This document shows positions 14,322-63,598 of a stretch of 63,598 nucleotides of DNA, in pieces (within the stretch, counting starts at the first letter, position 1; every line of letters begins with the position of its first letter). The notes beneath the pieces were generated by a model. It had not been told where the DNA came from. It ran no database searches and saw only the letters and a list, made by a program, of their open reading frames with translations. Source of the stretch: an uncultured Ectothiorhodospiraceae bacterium (lineage in GTDB: Bacteria; Pseudomonadota; Gammaproteobacteria; UBA6429; Thiohalophilaceae); NCBI GenBank assembly GCA_947258695.1, contig CAMYJG010000008.1, forward strand, positions 1 through 63,598. Direction: 5' to 3'. Made by a program: the position numbers and the translations under genes.

Positions 14322-14334
14322 TAACTTCTGCTTA

Positions 14335-21397: not shown

Positions 21398-21399
21398 TA

Positions 21400-25773: not shown

Positions 25774-25802
25774 TAAAGAATGTTCTGTCACTATTTACAA
25801 TA

Positions 25803-48010: not shown

Positions 48011-48487
48011 ATGAAAAAAGGTATTATTTTAGCGGCATCACTATTAAGCCTGGCAGCGACATCAGCTTTTGCAGCAGGTCCTGCTAAAGACGGTAAAGCA
48101 AAAAATGGTTACTTAAAATCAAAAGTTGTATACCACATTAACAACATTCACACCGCAACGGGTGCTTTACGTAATGTAAAAAACCATCTGAATGCTGTTG
48201 GCGACAAAAACATCGAATTAATCGTTGTCACACATAGCTCGGGTGCTTTTGCTATGGTTGACGGTTCAATGGGTAAGAAAAACAAAAAAACCGGTAAAGT
48301 TTATAACTTTAACGATACTATCGCTGGTTTAGCTAACCGTGGTGTTAAGTTCACCATTTGTGCTAACACTATCCGTGGTAAGAAAATCAACAAAAACTTA
48401 ATCAACGAAAATGCTGAAGTTATTCCTTCAGGCGTTGCTGAAGTTGCCTTCTTACAACAAAAAGGTTACATGTACGTTAAGCCTTAA
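48011..48487 (+). CDS. Exported DsrE-family protein
   Basis: A 158-residue protein with a Sec signal peptide (MKKGIILAASLLSLAATSAFA, cleavage after AFA at about residue 21). The mature part has the DsrE/F fold pattern: KVVYHINNIHTATGALRNVK, IELIVVTHSSGAFAMVDG, and FTICANTIRG with the protein's single Cys. DsrE-family proteins carry sulfur on such a Cys. The start at 48011 has GGAGG upstream; an upstream in-frame ATG at 47900 would bury the signal peptide. It is followed by a strong terminator and lies near soxYZ, consistent with a periplasmic sulfur-handling role (inferred). Confidence 0.85.
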   Translation: MKKGIILAASLLSLAATSAFAAGPAKDGKAKNGYLKSKVVYHINNIHTATGALRNVKNHLNAVGDKNIELIVVTHSSGAFAMVDGSMGKKNKKTGKVYNFNDTIAGLANRGVKFTICANTIRGKKINKNLINENAEVIPSGVAEVAFLQQKGYMYVKP

Positions 48488-48511
48488 GGTTTAATTGTCA
48501 CTGTACAGAGA

Positions 48512-48539
48512 ACGGGTGTTTCGGCACCCGTTTTTTTTT
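48512..48539 (+). terminator. Rho-independent terminator after the DsrE-like gene
   Basis: Stem ACGGGTG / CACCCGT with loop TTTCGG and nine T residues. Confidence 0.92.
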
Positions 48540-48557
48540 CGGTAGGTTTCTATGGGG

Positions 48558-48598
48558 TAAAAAAAAAGCCTAACTTATTGAAAAAGTTAGGCTTTTTT
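48558..48598. terminator. Bidirectional terminator, mainly for the initiator tRNA
   Basis: Stem AAGCCTAACTT / AAGTTAGGCTT with an A-run on the left and a T-run on the right. Read on the minus strand it ends the tRNA transcript in a run of T residues. Confidence 0.9.
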
Positions 48599-48606
48599 AG
48601 AAATTT

Positions 48607-48683
<77 letters not shown>

Positions 48684-49010
48684 ATCGATGGCGCATTCTA
48701 CGGCATTTACCGGAGTATTAGCAAGCATTAATGCGAATTATCTGTAAATTAGCATGGCAAAATGCACCAAAATTGGGTGCAAAAATCCTAACTTTTTGAA
48801 ATATTAGACTGAATCAAGACTCACTAATAATTTCACGCTACAATTACCTTAGTTGCAAAATATAAATTGCATTTTGCATATAAAACTGAGTTTTGTTATT
48901 TGTGAGTACAATAAAGTCGTGATTTTGTTGTCTTTTAAATAGCTGCAACTTTTACATAAAAATAAACACTGTCCGAATTTGAAAACGGACTGTTTTAAGG
49001 AGTCTTATTG
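48684..49010 (+). promoter_or_regulatory. Region between tRNA-fMet and soxY
   Basis: A 327-base AT-rich gap without a gene. It holds the inverted repeat TGCACC-AAAATTG-GGTGCA (about 48763-48781), which resembles an NtrC-type site but with a wider centre, several TTGCA words, and the hairpin GTCCG...CGGAC at 48971-48990 followed by TGTTTT. It must carry the soxYZ promoter and the tRNA promoter on the other strand. Confidence 0.45.
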
Positions 49011-49481
49011 ATGGATACCACGCGTCGAATTATTCTCAAAGCGACTATGGCTGCGGGTACGCTTGCTGTTGCAGCTGGGGCGAATCTATTAACACCAAGT
49101 ACAGTTTTGGCGGCCTGGCCAGCTAAAGCTTTTAAAGCCAAGAAAATGGATGAAGCAATGAACGCCATTTCTGGTAAAGCAAAACCAGCTCCAAGTGGTG
49201 ATATCACGGTGAAAGCACCGGATATTGCTGAAAACGGGGCCGTTGTTTCAGTTGAAGTTAAAACAACATTACCTAAAGTAGAAAGTATTTCCATTTATGT
49301 TCCAGCGAACGCTTTCCCACTATCTGCGAGTTACATTTTATCTAATCAAATGGAAACTGCGATTACAGGCCGTATCAAAATGGCTAAAACTGCAGATGTT
49401 GTTGCTGTTGTTAAGTCGAATGGTAAGCTTTATACCGCTAAAAAAGGCGTTAAAGTGACCTTAGGTGGTTGTGGCGGTTAA
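49011..49481 (+). CDS. soxY: Sulfur-carrier protein SoxY
   Basis: Periplasmic protein that carries sulfur intermediates on a C-terminal Cys during thiosulfate oxidation. It has 156 residues. The N-terminus is a twin-arginine signal (TRRIILKATMAAGTLAVAAG), so it is exported folded, probably with SoxZ bound. The C-terminus ends in the invariant swinging arm GGCGG. The ATG at 49011 has AAGGAG eight bases upstream; a TTG one codon earlier is not needed. soxZ follows 50 bases later. SoxAX, SoxB and SoxCD are not in the window. Confidence 0.96.
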   Translation: MDTTRRIILKATMAAGTLAVAAGANLLTPSTVLAAWPAKAFKAKKMDEAMNAISGKAKPAPSGDITVKAPDIAENGAVVSVEVKTTLPKVESISIYVPANAFPLSASYILSNQMETAITGRIKMAKTADVVAVVKSNGKLYTAKKGVKVTLGGCGG

Positions 49482-49531
49482 TCGTTGTTTAACATTATTA
49501 TTGATTAAAGAATTTACTGAAGGACATTATC

Positions 49532-49846
49532 ATGGCTAGAAAGATGAAAATTCGTGCTTGGGATAACGGTAAGAACACGTCGATTAAAGCGATTATCTTC
49601 CACCCAATGGAAACAGGTTTACGTAAAGATAAAAAAACAGGTAAAAAGATTCCTGGACATTACATTACAGAAGTTAACTGTGAGCATAATGGAAAAAACA
49701 TACTCACCTGCCTCTGGGGACCGGGTGTCTCAAAAAATCCTTTTCTTGCGTTTAGTTTCAATGGCGCAAAAAAAGGTGACAGCGTTAAAATAAGCTGGGT
49801 TGATAACCAGGGTGGTAAAGGTGGTTCAACTGCAAAAATTGGCTAG
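49532..49846 (+). CDS. soxZ: Sulfur-carrier partner SoxZ
   Basis: Partner of SoxY, with which it forms the SoxYZ carrier complex. It has 104 residues, the family length, starting MARKMKIRAWDNGKNTSIKA. It has an immunoglobulin-like beta fold (HPMETGLRKDKKTGKKIPGH, then FLAFSFNGAKKGDSVKISW). It has no signal peptide, as expected if it is carried out with Tat-exported SoxY. A strong terminator ends this two-gene operon. Confidence 0.96.
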   Translation: MARKMKIRAWDNGKNTSIKAIIFHPMETGLRKDKKTGKKIPGHYITEVNCEHNGKNILTCLWGPGVSKNPFLAFSFNGAKKGDSVKISWVDNQGGKGGSTAKIG

Positions 49847-49873
49847 TTAATCACTTAATTTACACTGCTGAAA

Positions 49874-49898
49874 AAGGCGCACTTAGTGCGCCTTTTTT
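49874..49898 (+). terminator. Rho-independent terminator after soxZ
   Basis: Stem AAGGCGCAC / GTGCGCCTT with loop TTA, followed by a run of T residues. Confidence 0.94.
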
Positions 49899-50119
49899 AT
49901 TGCCTGCCGATAAATAATACTCCTCAGCTTCTTGTGCTACTTGTAAAAAGTGAACTGGTACACAAAATTTGTCTGATAGCCTGAAATATTTAGCATTATT
50001 AGGGACATAGCTTTAGATATTTCATAAATTGTCGATAAGTTCTATGTATTAAAAGGTATACAGTGATAGCCTGATTGTTGGCTATATCATGATGTGTCTT
50101 AATCGATAAGTGAATTTCT

Positions 50120-50626
50120 ATGATGAAAAAAATTATTACAGTATGCAGCGCATTGATTTTATTGACCCCATTAACTTGTTGGTCAGCTGGAATGTCCAGG
50201 GAACAGATTAAAGGGCTTGATGAGCAGGTACAGGAAATTAAAAAAGATGTACTGGCTATCTCAGCAGAGCTTCAACTATTAGAAGAAAAGTTACTCTATC
50301 CCTCTACCAGCCAGGTTTCACTTTTTGTTTCAGTGGCCAAAGGTAGTAACTACATTCCAGACGCGATGCAAATAAAGCTTAATGGAAAAAAAGTGGCTCA
50401 TCATATTTATAGTTTTAAAGAAGTTAATGCTATGAGTCGTGGTGGTGTGCAGCGGATTTATACCGGAAATATTCGCGGTGGTGAACATCGATTGGATATC
50501 AGTGTTATTGGAAAAAGTAGTGGCAGTAAGTCTAAACAACAAACAACATATACTTTGAATAAAGGTGTTGGCCCCAAATTAGTTGAAATTAATTTAGGTA
50601 CTGCAATCACAATAAAAGATCGATAA
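50120..50626 (+). CDS. Exported coiled-coil protein, first gene of the envelope cluster
   Basis: A 168-residue protein with a Sec signal peptide (cleavage after CWSA, about residue 23; ATG at 50123 is an alternative start). Mature residues 24-62 form a likely coiled coil (REQIKGLDEQVQEIKKDV). The rest is beta-rich with the pattern SLFVSVAKGSNYIPDAMQIK and GGEHRLDISVIG, similar in style to PEGA-like or immunoglobulin-like modules. No clear homologue was recognised. It lies three bases before the next gene and is almost certainly co-transcribed with the TPR and TolQR-like genes. Function unknown; periplasmic location inferred. Confidence 0.75.
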   Translation: MMKKIITVCSALILLTPLTCWSAGMSREQIKGLDEQVQEIKKDVLAISAELQLLEEKLLYPSTSQVSLFVSVAKGSNYIPDAMQIKLNGKKVAHHIYSFKEVNAMSRGGVQRIYTGNIRGGEHRLDISVIGKSSGSKSKQQTTYTLNKGVGPKLVEINLGTAITIKDR

Positions 50627-50629
50627 GTT

Positions 50630-52585
50630 TTGAATACAAAAGTTTTCATATTATTAGCTGTCTTCGTTTCCAGTTCAGTAATAGCGAAAGATAGCGCTGA
50701 TGTTAAAAAAGATCTCTTTTTTAGCGAGGGCTTATATTATGCTTATCAAGAGCAGTATTTTGATGCGATTAGTAAAATAGATGCTGAGCTGGGTCAATAC
50801 TATGGTCTGGATGAACCTGAACTTAATTCACTTCATTTTTATTTGAATCATGCCGAGTTTTCTATTGGTGATTTTGAGCTTTATTACCGTATGCATAACC
50901 GGGCTGGTCGAGCCATTAAGTCGGTACTTGAAGGAAATGTCGAAGATGTTATCAGAAATGATGCTGCTTACCGTCTTGCAAAAATTTATCATCAGAAACA
51001 GCAACCCATCAACGCCTTGCATACCATACAGCGTATTAAAGGCGAAGTAGCCGAAAAAATAAAATACGACCTGGAGCTATTAAAAGCACAAATCTATATT
51101 TCGAACGCTAAATTTACAGATGCTATTGAAGTACTTGAAAGTATAGAAAGTGAAACAGCAGTTGCCGGATATGCCAGTTATAACCTGGCTATTGCCTATA
51201 TCGGTAATAATGAAACCGCTAAGGGAATCTTACAACTTGATCGGGCAGGGCAGGTTAACTCATCAGATAAAGCTGTATTAGCCATGCGGGACAAGGCCAA
51301 CCTTGCGCTTGGTTATAAATTAATGGAAAACAAGCAACCTGAACGTGCCGCAAAATATTTTGAGCGCATCCGGTTAGATGGACCATTTTCAAACAGGGCG
51401 TTACTGGGGTCCGGTTGGGCAGCGGTTGCAGCCGAAAAATTTAAACAGGCTATCGTGCCGTGGAGCATACTTGCCAAACGAAACGTAACCAATCAATCGG
51501 TACAGGAAGTGTTGCTAGGTTTACCTTTTGCTTATGGCAAACTTGAGGCACATGGCAAGGCTGCTGTTTTATATGGCAAAGCGCTGGATATATATAGCAA
51601 AGAGTTAGCAAATCTGGATAATTCAATTAAATCTATCCGTGAAGGCAAGTTTCTGGAAGCTGTTGTACGTGAAGAATTTAGAAAAGATAAAAACTGGTTG
51701 ATTAATTTACGTAATTTACCTGATGCTCCTGAAACACATTATCTCATGCAATTGTTGGCATCGAATGATTTCCAGGAATCTTTAAAGAATTATTTTGACC
51801 TGGATGATCTTGGGAAAAAAATTAAATCATGGGATGGACACCTGGATTCTTATACTGAGGTGATCGGACACCGCCGTAATTATTACACCCCGTTGTTTCC
51901 ACCTATGCAGGAAAAATTTCGTTTACTCGATTCCAGAATGAAACTTCGTTTGGCTCAGCGTAAAAAAATTGCTGACAGGCTAAATAAAATGTTGATAGCC
52001 CCAAGACCGGATTACCTGGCTAAAGTTAATGAACGAATAGCGCTTAATAATATTTATGGAATAGAAAAAAAATATAAAACGGGTAAAAACTCTTCCTCTG
52101 ATATTGATGATCGGATTAGTCGCTTAAAAGGTGTGATTCAATGGAATATTGAAACCGAGTACCAGGACAGGTTTACTGAGGCAGACAAAAATCTGCGTGC
52201 ATTGAATGAGCACATTGAAGAACTGGACAGGAAATACCGTTCATTTGTCAGAACACGCCAGGCGGCGACTCAAAGTTTTATTGGTTATGATGATCAAATT
52301 CGCCAGTTAAAAAATCGTATTCGTTTTGCCAGTGAAAAAATTGAATTACTACTGGCCAGGCAGGGACATTTCCTGGAACAGATGTCGATTAGTGAACTCG
52401 AGAACAGGCGTAAGCGAATTGAAGCATTACAAATAAAAGCCCGCTTCTCGGTGGCTGAAAGTTATGATCGAGCGGTTAAGAAACAACAAAATTTAGAATT
52501 GGAAAAACAAAAACAGGAGTCATTAAAAAATAAACCGGAAAGTAAACCAGCTTCTGAAAAAGACAAGCCTGAAGGTAATAAATAA
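50630..52585 (+). CDS. Exported TPR and coiled-coil protein (TTG start)
   Basis: A 651-residue protein starting at TTG 50630. The signal peptide MNTKVFILLAVFVSSSVIA is cleaved before KDS. Residues about 30-330 show helical TPR-like repeats (FFSEGLYYAYQEQYFDAISK, IYHQKQQPINALHTIQRIKG, YNLAIAYIGNNETAKGILQL). Residues about 440-630 are long charged helices, probably coiled coil, ending in a Lys/Glu/Pro-rich tail. Overlapping its stop (one base) is the 1044-residue TPR lipoprotein. Periplasmic scaffold by inference; the layout resembles TPR proteins of the myxobacterial Glt apparatus, but no ortholog is claimed. Confidence 0.82.
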   Translation: MNTKVFILLAVFVSSSVIAKDSADVKKDLFFSEGLYYAYQEQYFDAISKIDAELGQYYGLDEPELNSLHFYLNHAEFSIGDFELYYRMHNRAGRAIKSVLEGNVEDVIRNDAAYRLAKIYHQKQQPINALHTIQRIKGEVAEKIKYDLELLKAQIYISNAKFTDAIEVLESIESETAVAGYASYNLAIAYIGNNETAKGILQLDRAGQVNSSDKAVLAMRDKANLALGYKLMENKQPERAAKYFERIRLDGPFSNRALLGSGWAAVAAEKFKQAIVPWSILAKRNVTNQSVQEVLLGLPFAYGKLEAHGKAAVLYGKALDIYSKELANLDNSIKSIREGKFLEAVVREEFRKDKNWLINLRNLPDAPETHYLMQLLASNDFQESLKNYFDLDDLGKKIKSWDGHLDSYTEVIGHRRNYYTPLFPPMQEKFRLLDSRMKLRLAQRKKIADRLNKMLIAPRPDYLAKVNERIALNNIYGIEKKYKTGKNSSSDIDDRISRLKGVIQWNIETEYQDRFTEADKNLRALNEHIEELDRKYRSFVRTRQAATQSFIGYDDQIRQLKNRIRFASEKIELLLARQGHFLEQMSISELENRRKRIEALQIKARFSVAESYDRAVKKQQNLELEKQKQESLKNKPESKPASEKDKPEGNK

Positions 52586-55500
52586 TGCAGTTTAAATTAT
52601 TAATACTATTACCTGTCGTTTTAATTATTAATGCCTGCGCAATTTCTGAGCAGGGAACGATTGCTGACTTACGGGATGTTGATGTCGAAATAGTAGATAC
52701 TCGTATTGATGGTGGTCTTGAAAAGGCCATGAAAAGTTATCAAAAATTTCTTGAGCAAACCCCGGAGTCAGCCAGAACTCCGGATGCGATACGCCGTTTA
52801 GCTGATCTGAATATCGAAAAAGAATACGGTGTTGTAGAGGAAACTAAACCCGTTAAACCTACAGCAACTAAAGAAATTGTAAAACCTGCCAAACAATCTG
52901 TTGTAGCCGCGGTAGGGAAATCCAAATCTAAATCCAAGCCAGAAGATAAACCAAATAAAATTGCTAATGTTAAATCTGAATCGGTTAAACAGTTTGAGAA
53001 GCGTGCTGCAGGTAAGGAAAAAATAAAAGCCGCGAAAAGCTCAGGTGTTATTCCTTTACCTAAAGGCGCAAATATCGATGATTTACAAACCGCCGGTGCA
53101 AAAAAAGCGATTCGGTTGTATAAAAAATTACTGAAAAAGTTTCCATTATACGAGCATAAAGACCAGGTTCTATACCAGCTTTCACGGGCCTATGAAGAAA
53201 TCGGCCAGGTTGAAGCAGCAATGAAAGTGATGAACCAGCTTGTCCGGAAATATCCCGCTTCTCGTCATTTTCCGGAAGTACAGTTCAGGCGAGCTGAGTA
53301 TTATTTTACCCGTAAAAAGTATCTGGATGCTGAAGATGCCTATAAATCAATTATTAAAATAGGTAAGGGTACTGAATTTTATGAATTGGCTTTATATAAA
53401 CAAGGCTGGACATTTTATAAACAGGACCTGTATGAAGATGGGCTCAATCATTTTATTGCTTTACTCGACTTAAAAGTCAGTATTGGTTATGACTTTGCGC
53501 AGACAGATGACAAAGCTGAAAAGAAACGGATGGATGACACTTTTCGTGTTATCAGTCTGAGTTTTTCAAACCTGGGTGGAGCGGATACGGTTATTTCTTA
53601 CTTTAAGAAAATTGGTTCAAAAAGTTATGAAAGCGATATTTATAGTTTCTTAGCAGAATTTTACCTGGATAAACGGCGTTATAGTGATGCGGCATTAACC
53701 TATAAAGCCTTTATTGATAATAACCAGTATCACAAGCTCGCGCCACATTTTAGTATGCGAATGATAGAAATTTACCATAAAGGTAATTTCCCCAAGCTGG
53801 TTATCGAGGCTAAAAAACATTATGCCTCGTCTTATGGTGTGAATAAGGATTACTGGAAATATTATAATATTAAAGAACATCCCCAGGTTGTTAAATTCTT
53901 AAAAACTAATATTATTGATTTAGCTAATCATTACCATGCTATTTACCAGGATCCTCGCTATCTTGCAAAAAAGAAGAAAAACTTTCAGGATGCCTCATAC
54001 TGGTATAAAGAATTTTTGCGTTCTTTTCCTAAGGATCTGCAGTCACCTGAAATCAATTACTTACTGGCAGATTTATACCTGGAGAATAAAAATTATTTAG
54101 ATGCGGCTAAGGAGTATGAGAAAACAGCTTATAAATATCCTGTTAATAAGAAATCATCGAAAGCCGGTTACGCTGCGGTTTATGCATACCGTGAACACCT
54201 GAAAAGGGTACCTCAACATCAGAAAAGAAGAATTAAACGTGAAGTTATACGCACATCATTAACGTTTGTTGATGTCTTTCCAAAGCATGACAAAGCAGCT
54301 GTTATTCTTACTGCAGCCGCAGATAACTTGTATGAAATGAAAGATTTTCAACCGGCTATTAATACGGCTCATCAATTAATAAAGCAATACCCAAAATCTA
54401 AGCTGTCACTGCGTCGTTCTGCATGGTTAGTCATCGCGTATTCATCATTTGATATTCTAAAATATAAAGATTCTGAATTGGCCTATTTACAAGTGTTAAA
54501 TATGCCGAGTAAAAATAAAAAAACACGTAAAAAACTGGTAGAAAATTTAGCTGCTGCTGTTTATAAACAAGGTGAAGCTGCTAATAAACTATCGAAATAT
54601 AAATTGGCTGCTGAACATTTTCTTAGAATACGTCAATTAGCACCAGGCTCTAAAATTCTCTCAACGGCTGAATATGATGCAGCGACCGCACTGATTAAAC
54701 TTAAAGACTGGCCTAAAGCGGCAGAGGTTTTATTGACGTTCAGAAAAAACTATCCCAAGCATAAGCTTCAGGCTGAAGTCACTAAGAAAATTGCCTATGT
54801 ATACCGGGAAGATAAACAGTATTTACAGGCGGCTAAAGAGTTTGAACGCATTTTCGCACAGGCTAAAACCCGGCAAATACAGCGTGAGTCTTTACAAATT
54901 GCAGCAGAGTTATATAAAAAAATACCGGATCAAAAAAATACATTACGTATTTATAAACGCTACGTAAGATATTTCCCTAAACCGTTGGAAGAAGCGCTTG
55001 AAATACACAGTAATATTGCAAAGATATATAAGGATAATAACGAACATAAGAAACACCTGAAAACGCTTAAATATATTATCAAAGCCGATGCAAAAGCAGG
55101 ATCGGCTCGCACCGAGCGCACTCGTTACCTTGCTGGGATTGCCTCATTATCAATTATCGAACCCATCTATGATGAATTTGTTGCAATTAAACTCAACCGT
55201 CCGTTTAAACGTAATTTAAAGAAAAAGCAAAAGAAGCTGAAACGTAATATTCGTAAATATAATAAGCTGGTTGATTACCATGTCGGAGATGTCACTGCTG
55301 CTGCTACGTATTACATTGCAGAAACTTACTATCATTTTAGTCGAGCATTATTGGAGTCAGAGCGCCCAAAAAACCTAAACGAGCTGGAATTGGAACAATA
55401 TAATTTAATTCTTGAAGATCAGGCTTATCCATTTGAAGAAAAGGGTATCAATATTCACAAGAAAAATATCGAACTGCTTTCTGCTGGTGTTTATAGTCAG

Positions 55501-55719
55501 TGGATAGAGAAAAGTTTGGCTAAATTGGCTGTTTTGGTGCCAGGTCGTTATGCCAAGCATGAATTAAGTACTGGTGTCATCGATACGATCATGGAATACG
55601 AATATGAGGTGGATGATGTCAGTTCACCACCAGCTGCTGTGGTTTCACAAAATGAGCAATTGAAGTCTGAATCAGAGCTAGCCTCAGAACAAAAACAAGA
55701 CTCAAATACAAGCAATTAG
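52585..55719 (+). CDS. Giant TPR outer-membrane lipoprotein
   Basis: A 1044-residue protein with lipobox INAC, lipidated Cys18 and Ala at +2, so outer-membrane sorting is expected. A Lys/Pro/Ser-rich linker spans about residues 85-160. Residues 170-890 then hold many TPR units, such as YKKLLKKFPLYEHKDQVLYQ, YELALYKQGWTFYKQDLYED and AAEVLLTFRKNYPKHKLQAE. A charged tail ends in Glu/Ser/Gln. Large TPR proteins of this kind (AgmU/GltD) are part of the Agl-Glt machine; similarity in architecture is seen, orthology is not shown. The stop is followed by a 290-base gap before the next cluster gene. Confidence 0.85.
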   Translation: MQFKLLILLPVVLIINACAISEQGTIADLRDVDVEIVDTRIDGGLEKAMKSYQKFLEQTPESARTPDAIRRLADLNIEKEYGVVEETKPVKPTATKEIVKPAKQSVVAAVGKSKSKSKPEDKPNKIANVKSESVKQFEKRAAGKEKIKAAKSSGVIPLPKGANIDDLQTAGAKKAIRLYKKLLKKFPLYEHKDQVLYQLSRAYEEIGQVEAAMKVMNQLVRKYPASRHFPEVQFRRAEYYFTRKKYLDAEDAYKSIIKIGKGTEFYELALYKQGWTFYKQDLYEDGLNHFIALLDLKVSIGYDFAQTDDKAEKKRMDDTFRVISLSFSNLGGADTVISYFKKIGSKSYESDIYSFLAEFYLDKRRYSDAALTYKAFIDNNQYHKLAPHFSMRMIEIYHKGNFPKLVIEAKKHYASSYGVNKDYWKYYNIKEHPQVVKFLKTNIIDLANHYHAIYQDPRYLAKKKKNFQDASYWYKEFLRSFPKDLQSPEINYLLADLYLENKNYLDAAKEYEKTAYKYPVNKKSSKAGYAAVYAYREHLKRVPQHQKRRIKREVIRTSLTFVDVFPKHDKAAVILTAAADNLYEMKDFQPAINTAHQLIKQYPKSKLSLRRSAWLVIAYSSFDILKYKDSELAYLQVLNMPSKNKKTRKKLVENLAAAVYKQGEAANKLSKYKLAAEHFLRIRQLAPGSKILSTAEYDAATALIKLKDWPKAAEVLLTFRKNYPKHKLQAEVTKKIAYVYREDKQYLQAAKEFERIFAQAKTRQIQRESLQIAAELYKKIPDQKNTLRIYKRYVRYFPKPLEEALEIHSNIAKIYKDNNEHKKHLKTLKYIIKADAKAGSARTERTRYLAGIASLSIIEPIYDEFVAIKLNRPFKRNLKKKQKKLKRNIRKYNKLVDYHVGDVTAAATYYIAETYYHFSRALLESERPKNLNELELEQYNLILEDQAYPFEEKGINIHKKNIELLSAGVYSQWIEKSLAKLAVLVPGRYAKHELSTGVIDTIMEYEYEVDDVSSPPAAVVSQNEQLKSESELASEQKQDSNTSN

Positions 55720-56009
55720 ATGAGCTATGATCGTTTAAATAACCATGGAAAGATAATGGTTACTGGTAACAAACGACTGGATTTTACTAAAGTGACAGCT
55801 GGTTCACAGTAGTGAATTTATTGACTAAAGCTATTTCTTATATAACCGAAATATAAGGTATAAGTGAGTTGTTATTAGACCTTAAATTTAGTGACTTATT
55901 TCTCATAATAGCAATAAAAACAATAGTTTAGGATTTATTGTTAATAAATAGGATAAACTAGAGTATTACGATAGCCCTTAGTTGGGATTGTGTTTGAAAA
56001 TTAAAGTGT
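55720..56009 (+). promoter_or_regulatory. Gap inside the envelope cluster
   Basis: 290 bases with no gene. Inverted repeats AACCAT...ATGGTT (about 55742-55762) and GTTAC-TG-GTAAC (about 55759-55770) are present, with no T-run terminator. A second promoter may lie here, making two transcription units. Confidence 0.35.
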
Positions 56010-56624
56010 ATGTTTATTACAAATTTCTCTAATTATAAGAAGTATATTGCCGTGTTATTTGCAGCTTTTCTGACGGCTTGTGCTACTACGTCTGGCAATA
56101 AAGCCGTTGTAATTGACAGCGACGATATTGTCATATCTGAAGAGTATGGAATTGATACCGATTTGCGTGAGAAATTTGAGCAGGCTGTTCAGCTAATTAA
56201 GGATAATAAGTATAAGCCCGCTATTGAATTATTAGTTAAGGTGACAGATAAAACCGATAAGCATAGTGCGCCTTATATTAATCTTGCGATTGCTTATTCA
56301 GAATCAGGAAATATACAACAGGCAGAAAAAATTTTATTAAGAGCGATTAAAATTAATCCGCAACACCCGGTCACTAACAACGAGCTTGGTTTACTTTATC
56401 GTAAAACAGGACGCTTTTCAGATGCAAAGAAAACGTATGAAAAAATAGTCAAAAGGTATCCCCAGTTTTTACCTGCAAGAAAAAATTTAGGTATTTTATG
56501 TGATCTATTTATGGCTGATCTGGGTTGTGCTATTTCTCACTATGAAACTTTTCTACAGTATCAGCCCAATGATAAAGAAGTAAAAATCTGGCTGGCTGAT
56601 TTAAAAAGCAGGGCAGGGAAATAA
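56010..56624 (+). CDS. Small TPR outer-membrane lipoprotein
   Basis: A 204-residue protein with lipobox LTAC, Cys24 and Ala at +2, which predicts an outer-membrane lipoprotein. Residues about 55-190 hold three to four TPR units (FEQAVQLIKDNKYKPAIELL, INLAIAYSESGNIQQAEKIL, NELGLLYRKTGRFSDAKKTY). The size and architecture fit PilF- or AglT/GltE-like lipoproteins; here the company of TolQR-like genes favours the second. Its stop overlaps the next start by one base. Confidence 0.82.
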   Translation: MFITNFSNYKKYIAVLFAAFLTACATTSGNKAVVIDSDDIVISEEYGIDTDLREKFEQAVQLIKDNKYKPAIELLVKVTDKTDKHSAPYINLAIAYSESGNIQQAEKILLRAIKINPQHPVTNNELGLLYRKTGRFSDAKKTYEKIVKRYPQFLPARKNLGILCDLFMADLGCAISHYETFLQYQPNDKEVKIWLADLKSRAGK

Positions 56625-56911
56625 TGATGTTGTTAAAGAAAATACTATTAATAACAATTTTTACTTTTGTTGCAAGCCATATAAGTTATGCAGAAAAAAA
56701 GAAAACTGATCAGGCTAAAACCTTATCAGGTATATCAATTATTGGTAATAAAGATGCACCTAAATCTTTGTATATCGTTCCCTGGCGTAGTTCAGATTTA
56801 GGATTCGAAACAGATTTAAATTCAAGCCTTCTTAACGAAGGCCTTCATCCTGTTGACAAGGATGTTTTTATTCGCGAGCTGAATTTCTATGAAATCAGTA
56901 CAGATAAATAA
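56624..56911 (+). CDS. Small exported protein of the envelope cluster
   Basis: A 95-residue protein with a Sec signal peptide ending SHISYA at about residue 23 (ATG at 56627 is an alternative start). The mature part is about 70 residues with the block SGISIIGNKDAPKSLYIVPW near residue 35 and no Cys. I do not recognise a named family. It overlaps the TPR lipoprotein gene by one base and lies 38 bases before the TolQ-like gene. Periplasmic location inferred, function unknown. Confidence 0.7.
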   Translation: MMLLKKILLITIFTFVASHISYAEKKKTDQAKTLSGISIIGNKDAPKSLYIVPWRSSDLGFETDLNSSLLNEGLHPVDKDVFIRELNFYEISTDK

Positions 56912-56949
56912 TTAACATAATTAAAAGTGTAGGTATGAGGTAATAGTTT

Positions 56950-57594
56950 ATGGGTTTTCTATATTCGATAGTGGAATTTATTCAGGCCGGGGGTGCATTT
57001 ATGTATCCCATTCTTATTGTTTTTGCTGTTGGTGGTGCGATTGCAGTAGAACGTATTGTCGTTTTAGCTGCTACCCGAGGGAAAAACAGAAAAATGTGGG
57101 ATAAGTTACATCCTGTGATGGTTGAAGGTGATTTTGACCAGGCACGTTCTATGACAAGTGAAGATGAATCTTTTCTTAGTCAGCTTTTAGGTATGGGCCT
57201 GGCACGAGAAGGTGCGGTACGGCGTCGTGATGATATTGAAATTGCGATGGAAGAAAGCATGATGGAAATTATCCCACAACTTGAGAAACGCACTCCTTAT
57301 GTTGCCTTGTTTGCAAATATATCAACTTTACTTGGGTTACTCGGTACTATCATGGGTTTGATCGAAGCATTTACCGCGGTGGCCAATGCCAACCCGGCAG
57401 AAAAAGCGGACTTATTATCTGCCAGTATCTCGGTTGCGATGAATACCACAGCATTTGGCTTGATGGCTGCTATCCCACTTTTAATAACTCACACTTACTT
57501 AACTTCTAAAACCGGTGAAATTATTGATAGTTTAGAGATGGCATCGGTTAAAACATTAAATATTATTTCTGAATCAGCTAAACGTCAGGGATAA
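56950..57594 (+). CDS. TolQ/ExbB-like proton channel subunit
   Basis: Inner-membrane subunit that forms the pentameric channel around TolR/ExbD-like partners. It has 214 residues with three membrane helices at about 15-40, 117-143 and 158-183. The TM2 block LFANISTLLGLLGTIMGLIE and TM3 block SISVAMNTTAFGLMAAIPLL keep the channel-lining Thr (166/167). A cytoplasmic loop lies between helices 1 and 2. GAGGTAATAG precedes the ATG. Two ExbD-like genes follow directly. It is not next to pal, tolB or exbB-linked receptors, so this is neither ordinary Tol-Pal nor TonB. AglR of Myxococcus is the closest functional parallel. Confidence 0.92.
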   Translation: MGFLYSIVEFIQAGGAFMYPILIVFAVGGAIAVERIVVLAATRGKNRKMWDKLHPVMVEGDFDQARSMTSEDESFLSQLLGMGLAREGAVRRRDDIEIAMEESMMEIIPQLEKRTPYVALFANISTLLGLLGTIMGLIEAFTAVANANPAEKADLLSASISVAMNTTAFGLMAAIPLLITHTYLTSKTGEIIDSLEMASVKTLNIISESAKRQG

Positions 57595-57599
57595 ATATA

Positions 57600-58115
57600 A
57601 TGTCTAGACGACATCACTATAGAAGAAAAGATAAAGAAGTTCCTGAGCTTGATATCACTACCTTTTTAAATTTAATGGTGGTATTGATTCCCTTTCTTTT
57701 AATTTCAGCAGTATTTTCACGAGTCACTGTTCTTGAACTTGATGTGCCTACCGGTGCTGGTGGAGCACAGGAAAAACCAAAGTTAACACTTGAAGTTATT
57801 GTGCGTAAAAAAGGAATTGAAATAGGTAATGGTAAAGGTGTAGTTGCCAGTATGAAAAAAGTGGATGGGAAGTATGATATTCCAACTTTATCTAAATACT
57901 TGCAAAAAATTAAAAAGAACTACCCGGATAAAACAGACGCGACTGTTTTAATGGAACCTAATCTTGAGTATGAATACCTGGTGCTTGTGATGGATGCTGT
58001 GCGTAGCGCAGAAAAAATACCAGAACGTCCTTTGCTTGATATGGAAATAAAACCAAACACTCCTCCGGAGAAAGTCGTTTTGTTTACAGATATTTCAGTT
58101 GGAGACGCACCATAA
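57600..58115 (+). CDS. TolR/ExbD-like subunit 1, Asn at the proton-carrier position
   Basis: A 171-residue protein with a cytoplasmic basic N-terminus, one membrane helix at about residues 22-41 and a periplasmic domain. The helix reads ELDITTFLNLMVVLIPFLLI. Aligned to the ExbD/TolR pattern (T-P-L-I-D-V-M), the essential Asp is Asn24 (AAT at 57669-57671). An Asp is present six residues earlier (D18), outside the usual position. It starts five bases after the TolQ-like gene and overlaps ExbD-like gene 2 by one base. It may pair with that second, Asp-bearing subunit. Confidence 0.9.
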   Translation: MSRRHHYRRKDKEVPELDITTFLNLMVVLIPFLLISAVFSRVTVLELDVPTGAGGAQEKPKLTLEVIVRKKGIEIGNGKGVVASMKKVDGKYDIPTLSKYLQKIKKNYPDKTDATVLMEPNLEYEYLVLVMDAVRSAEKIPERPLLDMEIKPNTPPEKVVLFTDISVGDAP

Positions 58116-58609
58116 TGCATAATTCACGGCGCATGAAACGTATGGGGCGCAGTAAAAAGAAAGTTGCCGGGTTAAGCCTGGTATCCCTGATGGATGTATT
58201 TACTATCCTGGTGTTTTTCCTGTTAACGAACTCATCTTCAAATGAAGTGTTATCAAACCCAAAAGAAATAAACCTGCCTGACTCTGTGGTTGAGTCAAAA
58301 CCTCGTGAAACACTTGTTGTTTTTGTGTCTTCGACGGTCGTTATGTTACAGGGCGAACCCATCATGAAAACTGAAGATTTGTTAAAAACAAAACAGGATG
58401 TGGTTGCAACTTTAAGAGCGAAATTAATAGAGCAAAAAAAGAAAGTTATTGGCGTAAGCACCAAGGCAGTAGCTGAAAGTAAAGAGGTAACGGTACTGGC
58501 AGATAAAAAAATTCCTTTTAAATATCTAAAGAAAATCATGTCGACATGTACTAGCGCAGGCTATGGGAAAATTTCTTTAGCTGTAATTCAAAAAGCATCT
58601 CAGGGTTAA
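58115..58609 (+). CDS. TolR/ExbD-like subunit 2, conserved Asp present
   Basis: A 164-residue protein with a very basic cytoplasmic N-terminus (residues 1-19), one membrane helix at about 20-38 (LSLVSLMDVFTILVFFLLTN) and a periplasmic domain. Asp27 sits in the LMDVFTILVFFLL motif, the standard proton-carrying place of TolR/ExbD. The periplasmic part is predicted to form the usual swapped alpha/beta fold. It overlaps subunit 1 by one base and lies ten bases before the TonB-like gene. Two different TolR-like proteins with one channel protein also occur in the myxobacterial AglRQS motor. Confidence 0.92.
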   Translation: MHNSRRMKRMGRSKKKVAGLSLVSLMDVFTILVFFLLTNSSSNEVLSNPKEINLPDSVVESKPRETLVVFVSSTVVMLQGEPIMKTEDLLKTKQDVVATLRAKLIEQKKKVIGVSTKAVAESKEVTVLADKKIPFKYLKKIMSTCTSAGYGKISLAVIQKASQG

Positions 58610-58619
58610 GGATTAGATT

Positions 58620-59942
58620 GTGAACTCTGCCGTTTATTCTGAACAGAATAAAATATTAATTAAAATTGATGAAGCGGAACAACGCCGTAATAAATTAAAA
58701 GAAGAGTTATCGCGTGTTTCTCGCGAATTGAATAATATTACTGAGCAGACTTCTGTGTATTCTCATTTAGAAGAAGTCAGCATGCAACTTGAGAAGTTGC
58801 ATGAATTAGGTGGCGGAAAACTATTTTGGGAAGATAAATATACTACTGAAACTGAGTTGCTTGAGCACATTAGAGGTTTGCGTAGTAAAGCGAAAACATT
58901 TACCGACAAAGTTGATGTTGTTCGTGAAAAAAGAGATGTCTTGGAAAAAAAGCTCCAGGATGCCGCTTATGAAGTTGGTTATTTAAAAGAAGAGCTTGAG
59001 ATTGAAAAACATAATCAGGCTGAAAGTAAGCATGATTTTGTAATAAACAGAGATTTTCAACCGGTTCCTTATCGTGCAGTGGTTATGCCCTGGACGAATA
59101 AGGGCGAAGATGAAAAACGATTTAGAAAATATTTACTACTTGCGTTCTTATACTGTGCCTTAGTTATATTGATTGTTCCCTATATTGATATCCCAATACC
59201 TGATAAAGAAGAAGAGGTAAAGGTTCCGGAACGAATTGCGAAGTTTATTAAGAAACAGCAGCCTAAGCCTAAGCCAAAGAAAAAAGCACAAATTGCAGAG
59301 AAAAAGAAACCGTCTAAAGAGGAAACTAAAAAGGCGCGTAAGAAAGCTGAAAAATCAGGACTATTGGCTTTCAAAAATAACTTTGCCGATCTTATTGATG
59401 ATTCCAGTGAAGCCAAGCTAGGGGCGAATGCGAAATTATCTAAACAGGGATCACAGGCAAAATCAACGTCGCGTTCTTTGGTTCTGGCTCAAGCTCAATC
59501 CGGGAGTGGTGGTATCAAATCCTCATCATTGAGTCGTGATGTTGGCGGTGCTGGTGGTAATATTGGTGCGGTTAAATTTTCACGGGTAAGCAGTGCTATC
59601 GGTACTGCAGCAGCGGATGATCGGCCGCTCAGCTCAGGTCCGGGACCATCGCGTACCGATGAAGAAATACAAATTGTCTTTGATCGCTACAAAGCGACGC
59701 TTTATCGTATCTACAATCGAGAACTGCGTAAAAACCCGACCTTGCGAGGCAAAATGGTATTACGCATAACGATATTGCCAAACGGTAAGGTATCAAACTG
59801 TAAGGTTGAATCGACGGATCTAGACTCAGCCCTGTTATCGAAAAAGATTGTGGAAAGGGTAAAACGTTTCAATTTTGGAGCGAAAAAAGGTGTGCCGAAA
59901 GTGACGATTTTGTACCCGATCGACTTCTTGCCAGCCTCATAA
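58620..59942 (+). CDS. TonB-like protein with cytoplasmic coiled coil (AgmX/PglI C-terminal domain type)
   Basis: A 440-residue protein starting at GTG 58620 with AAGGA upstream. Residues 1-130 are a likely cytoplasmic coiled coil (RNKLKEELSRVSRELNNITE). A block FQPVPYRAVVMPWTN and a membrane helix (171-188, YLLLAFLYCALVILIVPY) follow. A Pro/Lys-rich periplasmic spacer (about 205-250), a Ser/Gly-rich segment (270-345) and a TonB-like C-terminal domain come next (RGKMVLRITILPNGKVSNCK onward). TonB itself has only a few residues before its helix, so the long cytoplasmic part is distinctive and recalls GltG/GltJ of Myxococcus. Last gene of the cluster. Confidence 0.88.
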   Translation: MNSAVYSEQNKILIKIDEAEQRRNKLKEELSRVSRELNNITEQTSVYSHLEEVSMQLEKLHELGGGKLFWEDKYTTETELLEHIRGLRSKAKTFTDKVDVVREKRDVLEKKLQDAAYEVGYLKEELEIEKHNQAESKHDFVINRDFQPVPYRAVVMPWTNKGEDEKRFRKYLLLAFLYCALVILIVPYIDIPIPDKEEEVKVPERIAKFIKKQQPKPKPKKKAQIAEKKKPSKEETKKARKKAEKSGLLAFKNNFADLIDDSSEAKLGANAKLSKQGSQAKSTSRSLVLAQAQSGSGGIKSSSLSRDVGGAGGNIGAVKFSRVSSAIGTAAADDRPLSSGPGPSRTDEEIQIVFDRYKATLYRIYNRELRKNPTLRGKMVLRITILPNGKVSNCKVESTDLDSALLSKKIVERVKRFNFGAKKGVPKVTILYPIDFLPAS

Positions 59943-60014
59943 ATGTGAACGATGTCATATTATAAATATGTGTATTTGATTATTATTTCACCACATCGCT
60001 TGCTGCGAAATGTA

Positions 60015-60090
60015 CTGTGCGGAAAGTCGAGTTTGCCTCATTGCTGGGGCAAAGCAAGATGTGCCGGAAGTCACAATCTCCACTAAATGA
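60015..60090 (+). pseudogene. Decayed duplicate of the 3' end of the TonB-like gene
   Basis: Bases 60039-60080 match 59870-59911 at 29 of 42 positions by hand alignment, and the reading frame gives GAKQDVPEVTIS before a stop (TGA 60088-60090), against GAKKGVPKVTIL in the intact gene. It has no start and is too short to work. It lies between the cluster and the giant protein. Confidence 0.55.
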
Positions 60091-60183
60091 CCATCTTATC
60101 AGCACTATAATGTGACCAATATCAGAGTTAAAGTACTGATTTAGATATAAAATTATCTATATTATCAGTAACTAATGCAATTT

Positions 60184-63100
60184 ATGAGCGATCTGCAAAA
60201 GCCTCTCTCGCGACTACTAAAAATGATTTGTATCGTTGTGGGCCTCGCGATGCCAATCGAAACGTTATTCGCTCATAACATCAATTGCAACAGCAATCCC
60301 GACAATATCTCGGGCATTATTTCTTACAATACCAGCGGTTCAAATAACACCTATTGTGAATTATGCGGTATTGGCCAGGTTCGAATCGTCGTCACTAATC
60401 CCACCCATGAAGACATGGCTGATTTCACTATCCGGCATGTTTTCGATTCGAACGAACTCGAATACGTACCTGGTACAACCAATGGCGGCGCTGATGGTGA
60501 TCCGGATATTACCGGCGGTGGAACAATACTCACCTGGACCTCAGCCGAGGTTGCTGCACTGGCTCAAATCGATGGTGCAAATAATCACTCATACAACACG
60601 GTTGAAATTGTCTTCAATGTCCGTAGCCGGGCTGGTACGGAAGAGAACCTGGTCAATATCGATCGCGATATCCAGGGCTTTGCAGATTTTAGATTTTGTC
60701 CGCTAGATACAAACACGAATGGTTCTGTTCAAACTAATAAATTTCCCTTACCGATTAATGAACCTGTTCCTTCGGTTACTAAACTTGGTCGTAATATCGA
60801 CGCAGCACAAGGTGCATATACATCGACTGTCTACGGCAATATTGCTGATGATGTGATCTGGCGCATTCGAATTTCAAATAGCGGCATTGTAGATATGCAG
60901 GACGTCATCTTTGATGACCTGATGCAAAATGGTAATTTCCAGATCAATTATGCATGTCCGACTGAAGGAGAAGCATTAACGATTGCCAATGCCAACGGGG
61001 CAGGGCCGGTTGGTGATTGTATTAACTCAAGTAACACAATAAATAACTTTCAACTTGATAACGATTTTAGTGATGCCTCATCACTTGAGACCGATGTACC
61101 GGCTGGTGGGTCAACGGATATCTTTCTAGTTGGTAAGATAACAAACTCATGTACAGCTAACAGAACCAATACAGTCAGTGGAGTAGAGTGGGGCTGTGAA
61201 GTGGATTCACCGGATGGTGGCATTACCCAAACATCAACCGGTGCTACAGCAGGAACTTCTACAACAACATTAAGCTCACTGGTTAATAATAATAACCTGC
61301 AAATTACTCGCGCATTAACAGGTTTGAATACCAATCAACCTGTGGGTAGCCGTGGTTTAATGACAATTACTATACGTAACCTGTCAGGGGGTAGTGTTAA
61401 AAACCTGGTATTAAAAAATACCTTACCATCAGAATATGTCGTTGATTCTACTTTTGATCCCACCTTAACCATGAATTATGCCTATGGTAATTTTGATGGG
61501 CGAATTGATGGAATGACGGTAGAGATGGAGGATGCCTCAAATAATATCGTAGCAGTACCGCCTGCCGATCCACTTGATTATAAAATACCGGTATTTACTT
61601 TAACCAGTACAACTCGAAACGTGATTGATGGAGGAACTCCGGGTACTGATCAGTTTAATGTATTAAGACATGGTGATGTCGCTGTTATTCGATTTAGGGT
61701 GGTGATGATTCAGCCTGATCACTTTGATTTAGTAGCTGATTTAGATACGACACCAGAAGAAATTGGAAATACTTTTGATCCTGATAATGTTCATAACACC
61801 GTCGGGGATCAATTAAGCAATACGCTTGAAGTTGACTTTGAAGATTTTTGTACCGGACCACAGTCACTCGTTTTTAATGACCCCTTTAATGCAAATCCTG
61901 AGGATTTGGATATATCAATAGAAGGTGGTTCAATTTTTATCTTGACCAATGATGAGAATCAACGTTTACCATTACGGGTAAGATTGACGAACAATGGTGG
62001 TCACTATGCGGATGACTATACGGCTTACGTTACTTTTGGTTCCACCATGGAAGTTGTTGCGGCACCCAATAATTGTACCAGGTTAGCTAAACCACCAAAT
62101 CCTGCAATTTTAGAGGTATGGGATGCTCCTGCTGATTTACCGGCATCAGCACAAATATATGAATGTTTAAGTACAGATTTTGGAACGATTGGGCCAAATG
62201 GCACGTTTATCGATTTTGATTTTGAAGTGGTAAAAGTCAGGCCGACTGATCCCGATTATACAAATAGAATAGATGAAGATGATCTCTCGTTTCGAGCAGA
62301 TGTTATCGGTGAAGTTCGGCAAAGTGATAACACTTTAACAGGTAGTGGTCCTTTATTAATTTTTCCAACAGTACCTACTACACCTGCAGTTCAAATTAAT
62401 AGTCGTGCTAATAACTATTCACTTGATGCGGTACGTGCAAAAGTGATCGGATTTAATCTGACAAAAGCACAAGCTGCTCCTGGCTATTGTTCTGAGAATA
62501 ATTCACCACTTCCTGCTTTACCCGATACGTTGGTTCAAATTGGTGAAGAGTGTACCTTCCATATCGAAACCGGTGGTTGGTTTGGTTTCCAGACACCAGG
62601 GTTTATCTATATCGCGGTAGAAGATGTACAGGTTATTGACCAAATCCCGGATGGCCAGGCTTATATCTCTTCAACCGATCCCACTTTAACCAGTGATATC
62701 GAAATTCAAGGCATTAATTTAAACACACCTCCAACCCCACCTGCACCTAATGAAGGATTTTTCGACTGGACATTTAACCAGGTAGTTCGCATTACGGAAA
62801 GAGATAAATGGTTCAGGGTAGATGCGACAACACGGATACTTAATGATCCTGATGATGTTCGTGCAGCCCCGAATGTACATGCGGCAACCAGTAGTAATGT
62901 ACTATTATCAACTTTTACTGCTATTTTTGATGATGGCAGTGGAGAAGTTCCTGTTCCTTTGGATGATAATGTAGTTGGGTATCCAGATCCGCCTATACGT
63001 ACTGTTGATCTAACGGTCACAGAACCAAGAATTATTGTAACCAAAGAAGCGTGTAATGAAACGCTGAGTATTGCTGCGAACGCGGCCAATAGTGGCGCAA

Positions 63101-63598
63101 ACTGTACTCCCTTTTCTTCAACTTTACCGGCAGCAAATGGCGGTGATACTCAGGATACTTATGTATTTCGTATTCGAGTTGAAAATGAGTTAGATAGTGG
63201 TTCTCCTAATACTGTACGTGCACCGGCGTATAACGTGGTTGTTACAGACACACTTGATGACAGTGATTTAATGTTAGTCATCCCGTTTAACTCAGGTGGT
63301 GATGATGGTTTAGATAACGATGGCGATGGTAGTACTGATGAAGTTGGTGCAGGTTTGGAAGGTAGTATTAGTAATAATGTATTAACACCACTAGCACCAG
63401 ACCCTGCTGTAATAACATTTTCACACTCGCACAGTACCGCGTTAGAAAAAATCAATCCAGGCGGTGTTGTTAACCTGTATTACAAAGTTGATCCTGATGA
63501 TGAAGTTGCACCATTGCAAATACTCACCAATAACGTTTCAGTGACTTATGATAGTTTGGCCGGACAATCTGGTAATCAAACTGAACCAGCACCACTGG
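60184..63598 (+). CDS. Giant secreted DUF11-type repeat protein, 3' end beyond window
   Basis: The frame is open without a stop from ATG 60184 to the window end: 1138 codons and still open. The N-terminus is a likely signal peptide (basic residues, then MICIVVGLAMPIETLFA, cleavage about residue 30; an alternative start is 60223). The mature protein is beta-rich, Asn/Asp/Thr/Gly-rich, with repeated DUF11-like modules starting near residues 196 (PSVTKLGRNIDAAQGAYTST), 374 (ITRALTGLNTNQPVGSRGLM) and 949 (PRIIVTKEACNETL). DGLDNDGDGSTDE near residue 1041 is an EF-hand-like calcium loop. Scattered Cys suggest disulfides. Likely a surface or secreted adhesin; its link to the preceding machine is inferred from position. 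Confidence 0.88.
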   Translation, partial: MSDLQKPLSRLLKMICIVVGLAMPIETLFAHNINCNSNPDNISGIISYNTSGSNNTYCELCGIGQVRIVVTNPTHEDMADFTIRHVFDSNELEYVPGTTNGGADGDPDITGGGTILTWTSAEVAALAQIDGANNHSYNTVEIVFNVRSRAGTEENLVNIDRDIQGFADFRFCPLDTNTNGSVQTNKFPLPINEPVPSVTKLGRNIDAAQGAYTSTVYGNIADDVIWRIRISNSGIVDMQDVIFDDLMQNGNFQINYACPTEGEALTIANANGAGPVGDCINSSNTINNFQLDNDFSDASSLETDVPAGGSTDIFLVGKITNSCTANRTNTVSGVEWGCEVDSPDGGITQTSTGATAGTSTTTLSSLVNNNNLQITRALTGLNTNQPVGSRGLMTITIRNLSGGSVKNLVLKNTLPSEYVVDSTFDPTLTMNYAYGNFDGRIDGMTVEMEDASNNIVAVPPADPLDYKIPVFTLTSTTRNVIDGGTPGTDQFNVLRHGDVAVIRFRVVMIQPDHFDLVADLDTTPEEIGNTFDPDNVHNTVGDQLSNTLEVDFEDFCTGPQSLVFNDPFNANPEDLDISIEGGSIFILTNDENQRLPLRVRLTNNGGHYADDYTAYVTFGSTMEVVAAPNNCTRLAKPPNPAILEVWDAPADLPASAQIYECLSTDFGTIGPNGTFIDFDFEVVKVRPTDPDYTNRIDEDDLSFRADVIGEVRQSDNTLTGSGPLLIFPTVPTTPAVQINSRANNYSLDAVRAKVIGFNLTKAQAAPGYCSENNSPLPALPDTLVQIGEECTFHIETGGWFGFQTPGFIYIAVEDVQVIDQIPDGQAYISSTDPTLTSDIEIQGINLNTPPTPPAPNEGFFDWTFNQVVRITERDKWFRVDATTRILNDPDDVRAAPNVHAATSSNVLLSTFTAIFDDGSGEVPVPLDDNVVGYPDPPIRTVDLTVTEPRIIVTKEACNETLSIAANAANSGANCTPFSSTLPAANGGDTQDTYVFRIRVENELDSGSPNTVRAPAYNVVVTDTLDDSDLMLVIPFNSGGDDGLDNDGDGSTDEVGAGLEGSISNNVLTPLAPDPAVITFSHSHSTALEKINPGGVVNLYYKVDPDDEVAPLQILTNNVSVTYDSLAGQSGNQTEPAPL

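Follow-up and report, generated by a model that had tools for sequence, protein, structure and literature searches.

The 63,598-nucleotide stretch analysed here (contig CAMYJG010000008.1, hereafter the window) comes from an uncultured Ectothiorhodospiraceae bacterium and carries, at positions 50120 to 59942, nine linked genes that are the AglRQS-Glt core complex already described in Gammaproteobacteria in the main text of Luciano et al. 2011 (PMC3169522). Behind these genes 1 to 9, a tenth opens a giant exported protein that the contig end cuts short. We read the ensemble as a proton-driven trans-envelope machine built on the AglRQS-Glt core, one subtype of which would be dedicated to a giant surface protein. 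The anatomy is observed and the function is deduced from it; we give the whole reading a probability of about 0.45.

A giant gene follows the long type of transducer

The GltG-like proteins encoded by gene 9 and its homologs are of two types, short and long, the window's being long. The long type carries about 165 residues, coiled-coil-like by eye, ahead of its hydrophobic helix; most of these extensions share an LG(A/G)..LFW motif, also seen by eye, and they would lie in the cytoplasm. As a giant gene we counted any same-strand open reading frame (ORF) of at least 300 amino acids (aa) with a start within 650 base pairs (bp), provided that it ran off the stretch or reached 1,500 aa. Such a gene lies behind every one of the 19 testable long-type clusters and behind 0 of 68 short-type ones (Fisher p 1.4e-19), counts that are less independent than the p value implies because the genomes are related. 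Six loci with less than 1 kb left stand outside the count, one long-type (L087) and five short-type, and L088, whose apparent extension is a mis-started ORF, counts as short-type. Some long-type loci show part of the giant ORF before their end (316 aa in L072, 553 in L049, 634 in L062). At least five short-type loci (L038, L068, L076, L081, L157) have a complete same-strand ORF of 912-1,276 aa nearby, which by eye represents another family and was excluded.

In the eight genomes with enough sequence, the giant ORF measures 1,610-5,022 aa, while the window's copy starts at 60175 and runs into the end of the contig, 1141 codons later, without a stop. Its start is of Sec type by eye. The giant protein fragment of genome G202 contains DUF11, SdrD_B and isopeptide-type domains; the part of gene 10 within the window has no Pfam match and one DUF11-type match in NCBIfam.

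The giant ORF is followed in all eight of those genomes by an ORF of 1,698-1,724 aa, gene 11 (eleven genomes were tried for this order, three of which ran off their contigs). The two gene 11 proteins that were scanned hold three (G007) and two (G202) OmpA stretches, and the first OmpA region aligns across the eight proteins. A beta-rich region comes after the OmpA part, and a model of it, built from eight sequences and of low confidence (mean predicted local distance difference test, pLDDT, 55), shows many long strands. Judged by title, the 50 PDB matches listed for this model out of 817 are outer-membrane barrel proteins or complexes that include one, at low TM-scores of 0.11-0.18, and we take the model as support for many antiparallel strands only. 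Gene 11 is probably a protein of OmpA domains plus an outer-membrane barrel.

Within a class sample of 369 genomes, and with a strength limit set after the scores had been seen, strong gene 11 matches occur in 13 genomes (one in two pieces) and long-type gene 9 in 14, with an overlap of 12. The two long-type genomes lacking gene 11 are the window's own, whose contig ends in gene 10, and G352, which is 79% complete and meets a contig end; G249 has gene 11 and no known long type. Seven of the 12 overlap genomes are seeds of the gene 11 profile. Leaving seeds out, 5 genomes have both, 2 have the long type without gene 11 and 1 has gene 11 without a known long type (p 2.5e-9); if gene 11 is taken to include the next tier of matches, these figures become 5, 2 and 7 (p 3e-7). 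At the level of the genus, gene 11 occurs in 4 of 6 long-type genomes (one of them a seed) and in 0 of 2 others. One match to the gene 11 barrel profile (G148:C2:460792-463989) lies inside an open frame of 11777 codons.

Layout and parts of the locus

The nine ORFs all lie on the plus strand, nearly end to end, interrupted inside the set by one gap, the 290 bp that separate gene 3 from gene 4. The features are as follows.

50120..50626, plus strand: gene 1, protein of 168 aa with a helix and a beta sandwich, export read by eye; its place in the order is kept
50630..52585, plus strand: gene 2, tetratricopeptide repeat (TPR) protein of 651 aa, exported (by eye), candidate GltC from its position
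52585..55719, plus strand: gene 3, GltD-like TPR protein of 1044 aa with a lipobox-like start
56010..56624, plus strand: gene 4, predicted GltE-like TPR lipoprotein of 204 aa
56624..56911, plus strand: gene 5, protein of 95 aa, export read by eye; its family has the consensus GxSIIGNxExPKxLYIVPWK
56950..57594, plus strand: gene 6, AglR-like (MotA/TolQ/ExbB) channel subunit
57600..58115, plus strand: gene 7, AglQ-like (ExbD/TolR) subunit, Asn replacing the canonical Asp
57645..57647, plus strand: gene 7 Glu16 codon, the acid at -8, Glu/Asp in 94/94 gammaproteobacterial homologs
57669..57671, plus strand: gene 7 Asn24 codon, aligned with AglQ Asp28
58115..58609, plus strand: gene 8, AglS-like (ExbD/TolR) subunit
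58193..58195, plus strand: gene 8 Asp27 codon, Asp in 94/94 gammaproteobacterial homologs
58620..59942, plus strand: gene 9, GltG-like transducer of 440 aa with an AgmX/PglI C-terminal domain
58620..59114, plus strand: gene 9 N-terminal extension ahead of the membrane helix, long type only; coiled-coil-like by eye, no coiled-coil program having been run
59130..59186, plus strand: gene 9 putative membrane helix, the most hydrophobic stretch by hydropathy
60175..63598, plus strand: gene 10, giant exported protein with DUF11 repeats, incomplete at the contig end

A first-pass annotation of the window, made from its letters alone, had proposed nine linked genes for a trans-envelope machine, and the ORFs, their strand and their layout bear this out, although the set proves longer, with at least ten genes here and eleven in relatives. 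The motor it named, one TolQ/ExbB-like and two TolR/ExbD-like proteins, is recovered by Pfam: gene 6 matches MotA_ExbB at 89.1 bits (cut-off 22.9), and genes 7 and 8 match ExbD at 54.8 and 56.8 bits (cut-off 25.4). The three TPR proteins that it listed are genes 2, 3 and 4, again by Pfam, and the two of them called lipoproteins are genes 3 and 4, in which lipobox-like opening signals were read by eye; among homologs, 77 of 113 for gene 3 and 81 of 97 for gene 4 agree with a loose lipobox pattern. Its TonB-like protein, gene 9, is better described by the AgmX/PglI C-terminal domain of NCBIfam (69.5 bits, cut-off 40), since the TonB_C match of 20.9 bits stays under the Pfam cut-off of 24.6. Genes 1 and 5 have zero Pfam matches. 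An AlphaFold2 model of gene 1 reaches a pLDDT of 86.7, and its fold finds no PDB match at an E-value of 0.001 or better (best 3.8e-3).

Upstream of the nine-gene set lie soxY and soxZ, which agrees with a sulfur oxidiser. Further away, at 7711-26786, a dense run of glycogen and sugar-phosphate metabolism genes was read by eye, without a family search, and includes two ADP-glucose pyrophosphorylase-like genes (7711-8940 and 16933-18201, also by eye).

Kinship with the AglRQS-Glt core

According to the main text of Luciano et al. 2011 (PMC3169522), gltD, gltE, gltG and gltC cluster with aglR, aglQ and aglS in Gammaproteobacteria, together with one further gene, sometimes in several copies and with a function not known; the authors thought motility unlikely for the core alone. 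The window reproduces this Group B core in gene content, in its clustering in a single region, in duplicate copies and in lacking an assigned function: aglR-Q-S and gltD/E/G/C-type genes share one region, the GltC part being assigned from position only. It differs in having two extra genes, 1 and 5, where that text names one. In the same main text, with figures and supplements outside the comparison, no mention was found of a giant protein, OmpA-barrel protein, long GltG subtype or Asp-to-Asn change.

The comparison loci from myxobacteria were reached through MglA searches. Searched with a GltD-like profile, Myxococcus sp. CA023 and a second record together yielded four long ORFs. The second record, titled Comamonas sp. 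KCTC 72670, behaves as a Myxococcaceae genome and is the source of locus L277. This locus is a bona fide gltDEG locus, with a GltG of 1083 bits (cut-off 650) near GltD. Another locus under that title, L164 (BNCN01000011.1), encodes an MglA 99% identical to the Myxococcus query in a genome with a full GltG, and the record looks mislabelled.

Checked against the Glt and Agl families as the first-pass annotation had advised, genes 3, 4 and 9 find their GltD, GltE and GltG homologs in L277, and the Agl-Glt core stands as the closest kin. Gene 3 matches GltD there at E 2e-80. The gene 4 profile matches the ORF after GltD at 124 bits (E 2e-36), a value to be taken with caution because TPRs are generic; the NCBIfam GltE model gives gene 4 a score of 36 bits, under its cut-off of 225, and the Tgl and PilW models score above it. 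The gene 9 profile finds GltG at 67 bits (E 5e-19), and gene 9 itself misses the NCBIfam GltG equivalog cut-off (57.3 against 650 bits). With the gene 6 profile, two AglR-type proteins of Myxococcus score 170 and 152 bits and the next MotA/TolQ protein 77; gene 6 is 38% identical to Myxococcus AglR, 22% to the TolQ and 33% to the ExbB of its own genome, and in a tree with a single outgroup row the gammaproteobacterial motors cluster apart from TolQR. For gene 2, a ten-row profile gives 26.7 bits at best in Myxococcus and nothing in Sorangium or Nannocystis, and a wider profile gives weak matches of 50 and 62 bits to ORFs in the matching position of L276 and L278.

Compared with the Myxococcus gliding machine, the motor and the GltD, GltE and GltG parts are thus homologous to those of myxobacterial loci. 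Differences are found in the GltG-like protein, which lacks the FHA match of Myxococcus GltG (Pfam, NCBIfam), and in the content of the locus, where a giant DUF11 protein and an OmpA-barrel protein appear and the group A genes are not seen. By NCBIfam, whose coverage of group A is unchecked, and with the search confined to the nine proteins, none of gltA, B, F, H, I, J and K was found, the sole trace being a GltJ C-terminal match of 22.8 bits. In the Myxococcaceae loci L273 and L274, one GltD locus is ordered as a weak gene 1 match (25-27 bits), a TPR protein and a GltD-like protein, followed in L274 by GltE-like and GltG-like matches; gene 1 may therefore have a relative in Myxococcota.

Aspartate in one of the two ExbD-like subunits

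A peculiarity of the motor lies in its ExbD/TolR-like subunits. We compared 94 gammaproteobacterial triplets, all the examined loci in which genes 6 to 8 exceed 100 bits. This leaves out loci that lack a motor nearby and includes several loci per genome or genus; the rows are not independent. At the ExbD/TolR Asp position, gene 7 has Asn in 92 of the 94, with one Asp and one Ser, and gene 8 has Asp in all of them. The aligned residue of four myxobacterial aglQ sequences is Asp, number 28. Excerpts of Wartel et al. 2013 (PMC3858216) report that proton conductance is lost and the motility machinery paralysed by the AglQ D28N change, and that the M. xanthus mutant does not sporulate.

Myxococcota are more varied at this position. 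Among 52 triplets, assembled from the 30 best-scoring loci of a phylum search, 20 chosen from its listing and the loci of four other genomes, with loci lacking two clean ExbD ORFs excluded, the residue aligned with AglQ Asp28 is Asp in 41, Asn in 10 and Gly in 1, and the partner has Asp in 52/52. A tree of genes 6 and 8, from which gene 7 was left out, was built with a quick method and has one long outgroup branch; on it, the clade with Myxococcus AglRQS has Asp in 37 of 37 rows, the gammaproteobacterial rows have Asn in 38 of 40, and another 14 Myxococcota rows form a mixed group (9 Asn, 4 Asp, 1 Gly). One more Asn row stands alone, and seven changes among the three states are required.

A second acid, eight residues earlier (-8), is distributed the other way round: it is present in gene 7 in 94 of 94 gammaproteobacterial rows and in gene 8 in 1 of 94, whereas in the Asp-type Myxococcota it is found on the AglS side in 32 of 41 and on the AglQ side in 10 of 41. 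Each subunit seems to contribute one of the two acids, a pattern that speaks for a heterodimer of genes 7 and 8. Since a dimer of two gene 7 proteins would offer no Asp to carry protons, the conserved split points to such a heterodimer or to a working gene-8 homodimer. The channel subunit keeps Thr133 and Thr167 at 95% or more.

Distribution and other motors in the genome

A GltD-like protein is present in 88 of 369 genomes and 67 of 272 genera of the class sample, where at most two candidates per genome were scored and copy numbers are lower bounds. The search listed 116 GltD-like matches, all but 9 of them inside examined stretches. In 113 loci with gene 3, the same order is kept, with all nine genes in 60 and genes 6-9 in 90, some of the gaps being contig ends. 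Chance neighbourhood of the nine genes is rejected on this order, and the TPR genes stay beside the motor genes, as the first-pass annotation had supposed. Six loci (L098, L099, L100, L139, L141, L142) hold genes 1-3 without motor genes in the examined stretch, the first three of them also with gene 5; such clusters may borrow the motor of another copy.

The genome of the window has seven MotA_ExbB genes. One belongs to a complete Tol-Pal set on contig C11 (tolQ, tolR, tolA, tolB, pal and ybgF, each over at least one NCBIfam cut-off), one to an ExbB/ExbD-like pair before msbA, and two to loci resembling MotA-MotB pairs by eye. The other three belong to GltG-like clusters: besides the window's, contig C10 has another copy of all nine genes (L038) and C2 a copy of the motor only (L039). 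Tol-Pal resembles the system in its motor family, in the OmpA/Pal-type domains of the relatives' gene 11 and in the YbgF-type TPRs of gene 3. Yet none of the nine proteins matches TolB or Pal (Pfam, NCBIfam), and the full set on C11 is separate, so that a second Tol-Pal set is rejected and the system lies outside Tol-Pal, as first suggested; the reported absence of Pal holds for the window and is qualified by the OmpA-type domains of gene 11 in relatives. A TonB system is likewise rejected on the TonB_C score, and by eye no TonB receptor is recognised in the ORFs at 44494-63598.

The motor-only copy, with genes of the 6-9 kinds (L039, G000:C2:131000-149000, 848-11469), stands directly behind a type VI secretion locus with TssM/IcmF, TagF, a PP2C phosphatase and a Ser/Thr kinase. 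The same order was read by eye in L052 (G032). No report plainly on a link between such a motor and type VI secretion was found in the open-access literature.

Proposed mechanism and alternatives

In the mechanism that we propose, a pentamer of gene 6 would enclose, in the inner membrane, an axle of one gene 7 and one gene 8 protein, and protons would pass through Asp27 of gene 8, the sole Asp. The axle would move the GltG-like transducer, whose extension in the cytoplasm could serve as a control input, like the FHA domain in GltG, and whose C-terminal domain in the periplasm would tug the TPR proteins at the outer membrane. The periplasmic and outer-membrane parts would be genes 1, 2 and 5 and the lipoproteins 3 and 4. 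The gene 11 barrel would grip the wall with its OmpA domains, and force passed through the TPR proteins and this barrel would move, expose or tension the giant fibre at the surface. Both this path of force and the purpose of the machine are inferred.

Comparable machines may be GldLM-SprB in Bacteroidota and SiiAB-SiiE, in each of which a giant surface adhesin is coupled to such a proton-driven motor; the transducer and TPR parts here are of Glt type. A bolder formulation goes beyond our main proposal: widespread one-Asp envelope motors would work as obligate unlike pairs, Asp on one subunit and the acid at -8 on the other, with the AglQ counterpart naturally carrying the D28N change that disables the gliding motor, and the long-GltG subtype would work a giant fibre through an OmpA-anchored barrel, an SprB-type counterpart made of Glt parts. 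We put this forward tentatively, as something that may well turn out otherwise.

Several points weigh against a machine dedicated to a giant surface protein. The surface location of the gene 10 product is itself presumed, and a likeness of its C-terminus to OmpA, noticed by eye, was dropped after hhalign gave E 0.17 with the gene 11 OmpA domain (E 0.58 with Pal). Short-type copies share the same motor and have no giant protein, so that the core in general cannot have the fibre as its purpose. Gene 11 has 0 matches in the window's own assembly, and, with the contig ending inside gene 10, its presence here is deduced from relatives. Six further genomes of the class, without known long type, contain the tier of relatives just below gene 11 (989-1,334 bits), and four of these genomes (G102, G343, G378, G044) have no GltD-like match, which implies a wider barrel family; the line between gene 11 and this tier is thin, G122 counting through two pieces that sum to 1,451 bits. 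Finally, no experiment on any gammaproteobacterial member was found in the open-access literature.

The strongest alternative is that the motor powers the export or outer-membrane maturation of the giant protein and not its later movement. The model would be SiiAB in its presumed role for the giant adhesin SiiE. The tie between the giant gene and the long-type motor fits this view, and an excerpt of PMC12204202 counts SiiAB in this motor family for type I secretion. Against it, no secretion ATPase or pore gene was seen by eye in the flanks of seven loci and downstream of eight, a reading made without family search, and gene 10 starts in Sec fashion. We consider a role in secretion somewhat unlikely.

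Gliding, which the first-pass annotation had offered through the likeness to the myxobacterial motor, would make gene 10 an adhesin and gene 11 an outer-membrane part that replaces the group A Glt proteins. Homology to AglRQS, GltD, GltE and GltG speaks for it, as do an MglA-like GTPase in the same-genus genome G002 and an Arf-family match in the own genome over the same profile stretch. The core homology holds, but the gliding machine has Asp in both AglQ and AglS and the present one Asn24 in gene 7 and Asp27 in gene 8; an AglQ counterpart without the Asp that M. xanthus needs for gliding and sporulation (excerpts of PMC3858216) argues against a plain equation with the gliding motor. The doubts of Luciano et al. 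about motility for the bare core (main text of PMC3169522) and the two MotA-MotB-like pairs of the genome also tell against locomotion, which is unlikely. The G002 GTPase (L161, G002:C63, 990-1652, minus strand) matches PDB 5ymx at E 4e-44 and lies beside genes read by eye as receiver and HD-GYP proteins; the Arf-family match of the window's genome is on C12.

Envelope maintenance by a second Tol-Pal-like system, with the OmpA domains of gene 11 as the tether between outer membrane and wall, would agree with those domains, with the TolR-like subunits and with the score of gene 3 above the YbgF cut-off (106.3 against 90.1 bits). The genome already has its full Tol-Pal set, the nine proteins include no TolB and the giant repeat protein would be left unexplained, and we judge this role quite unlikely. 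That the machine is a static scaffold whose motor has ceased to conduct protons, as the loss of Asp from gene 7 (92/94 Asn) might suggest, is very improbable, since the unbroken Asp of gene 8 (94/94) and the conserved Thr133 and Thr167 of gene 6 do not look like decay.

Conclusions

The core itself has been known since 2011, and the giant-protein subtype, the conserved Asn of gene 7 and the motor copy linked to type VI secretion go beyond it. Nothing plainly on either the giant-protein subtype or the conserved Asn was found in the open-access literature, supplements, most subscription papers and preprints lying outside that scope.

For a core complex that has lacked a known job since its description, the giant-protein subtype provides a concrete candidate client and a testable system. 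The division of acids between genes 7 and 8 raises the question whether motors of this family need two Asp at all. If the bolder formulation above is true, Gammaproteobacteria would possess a counterpart of the SprB-type surface machines, built from Glt parts.

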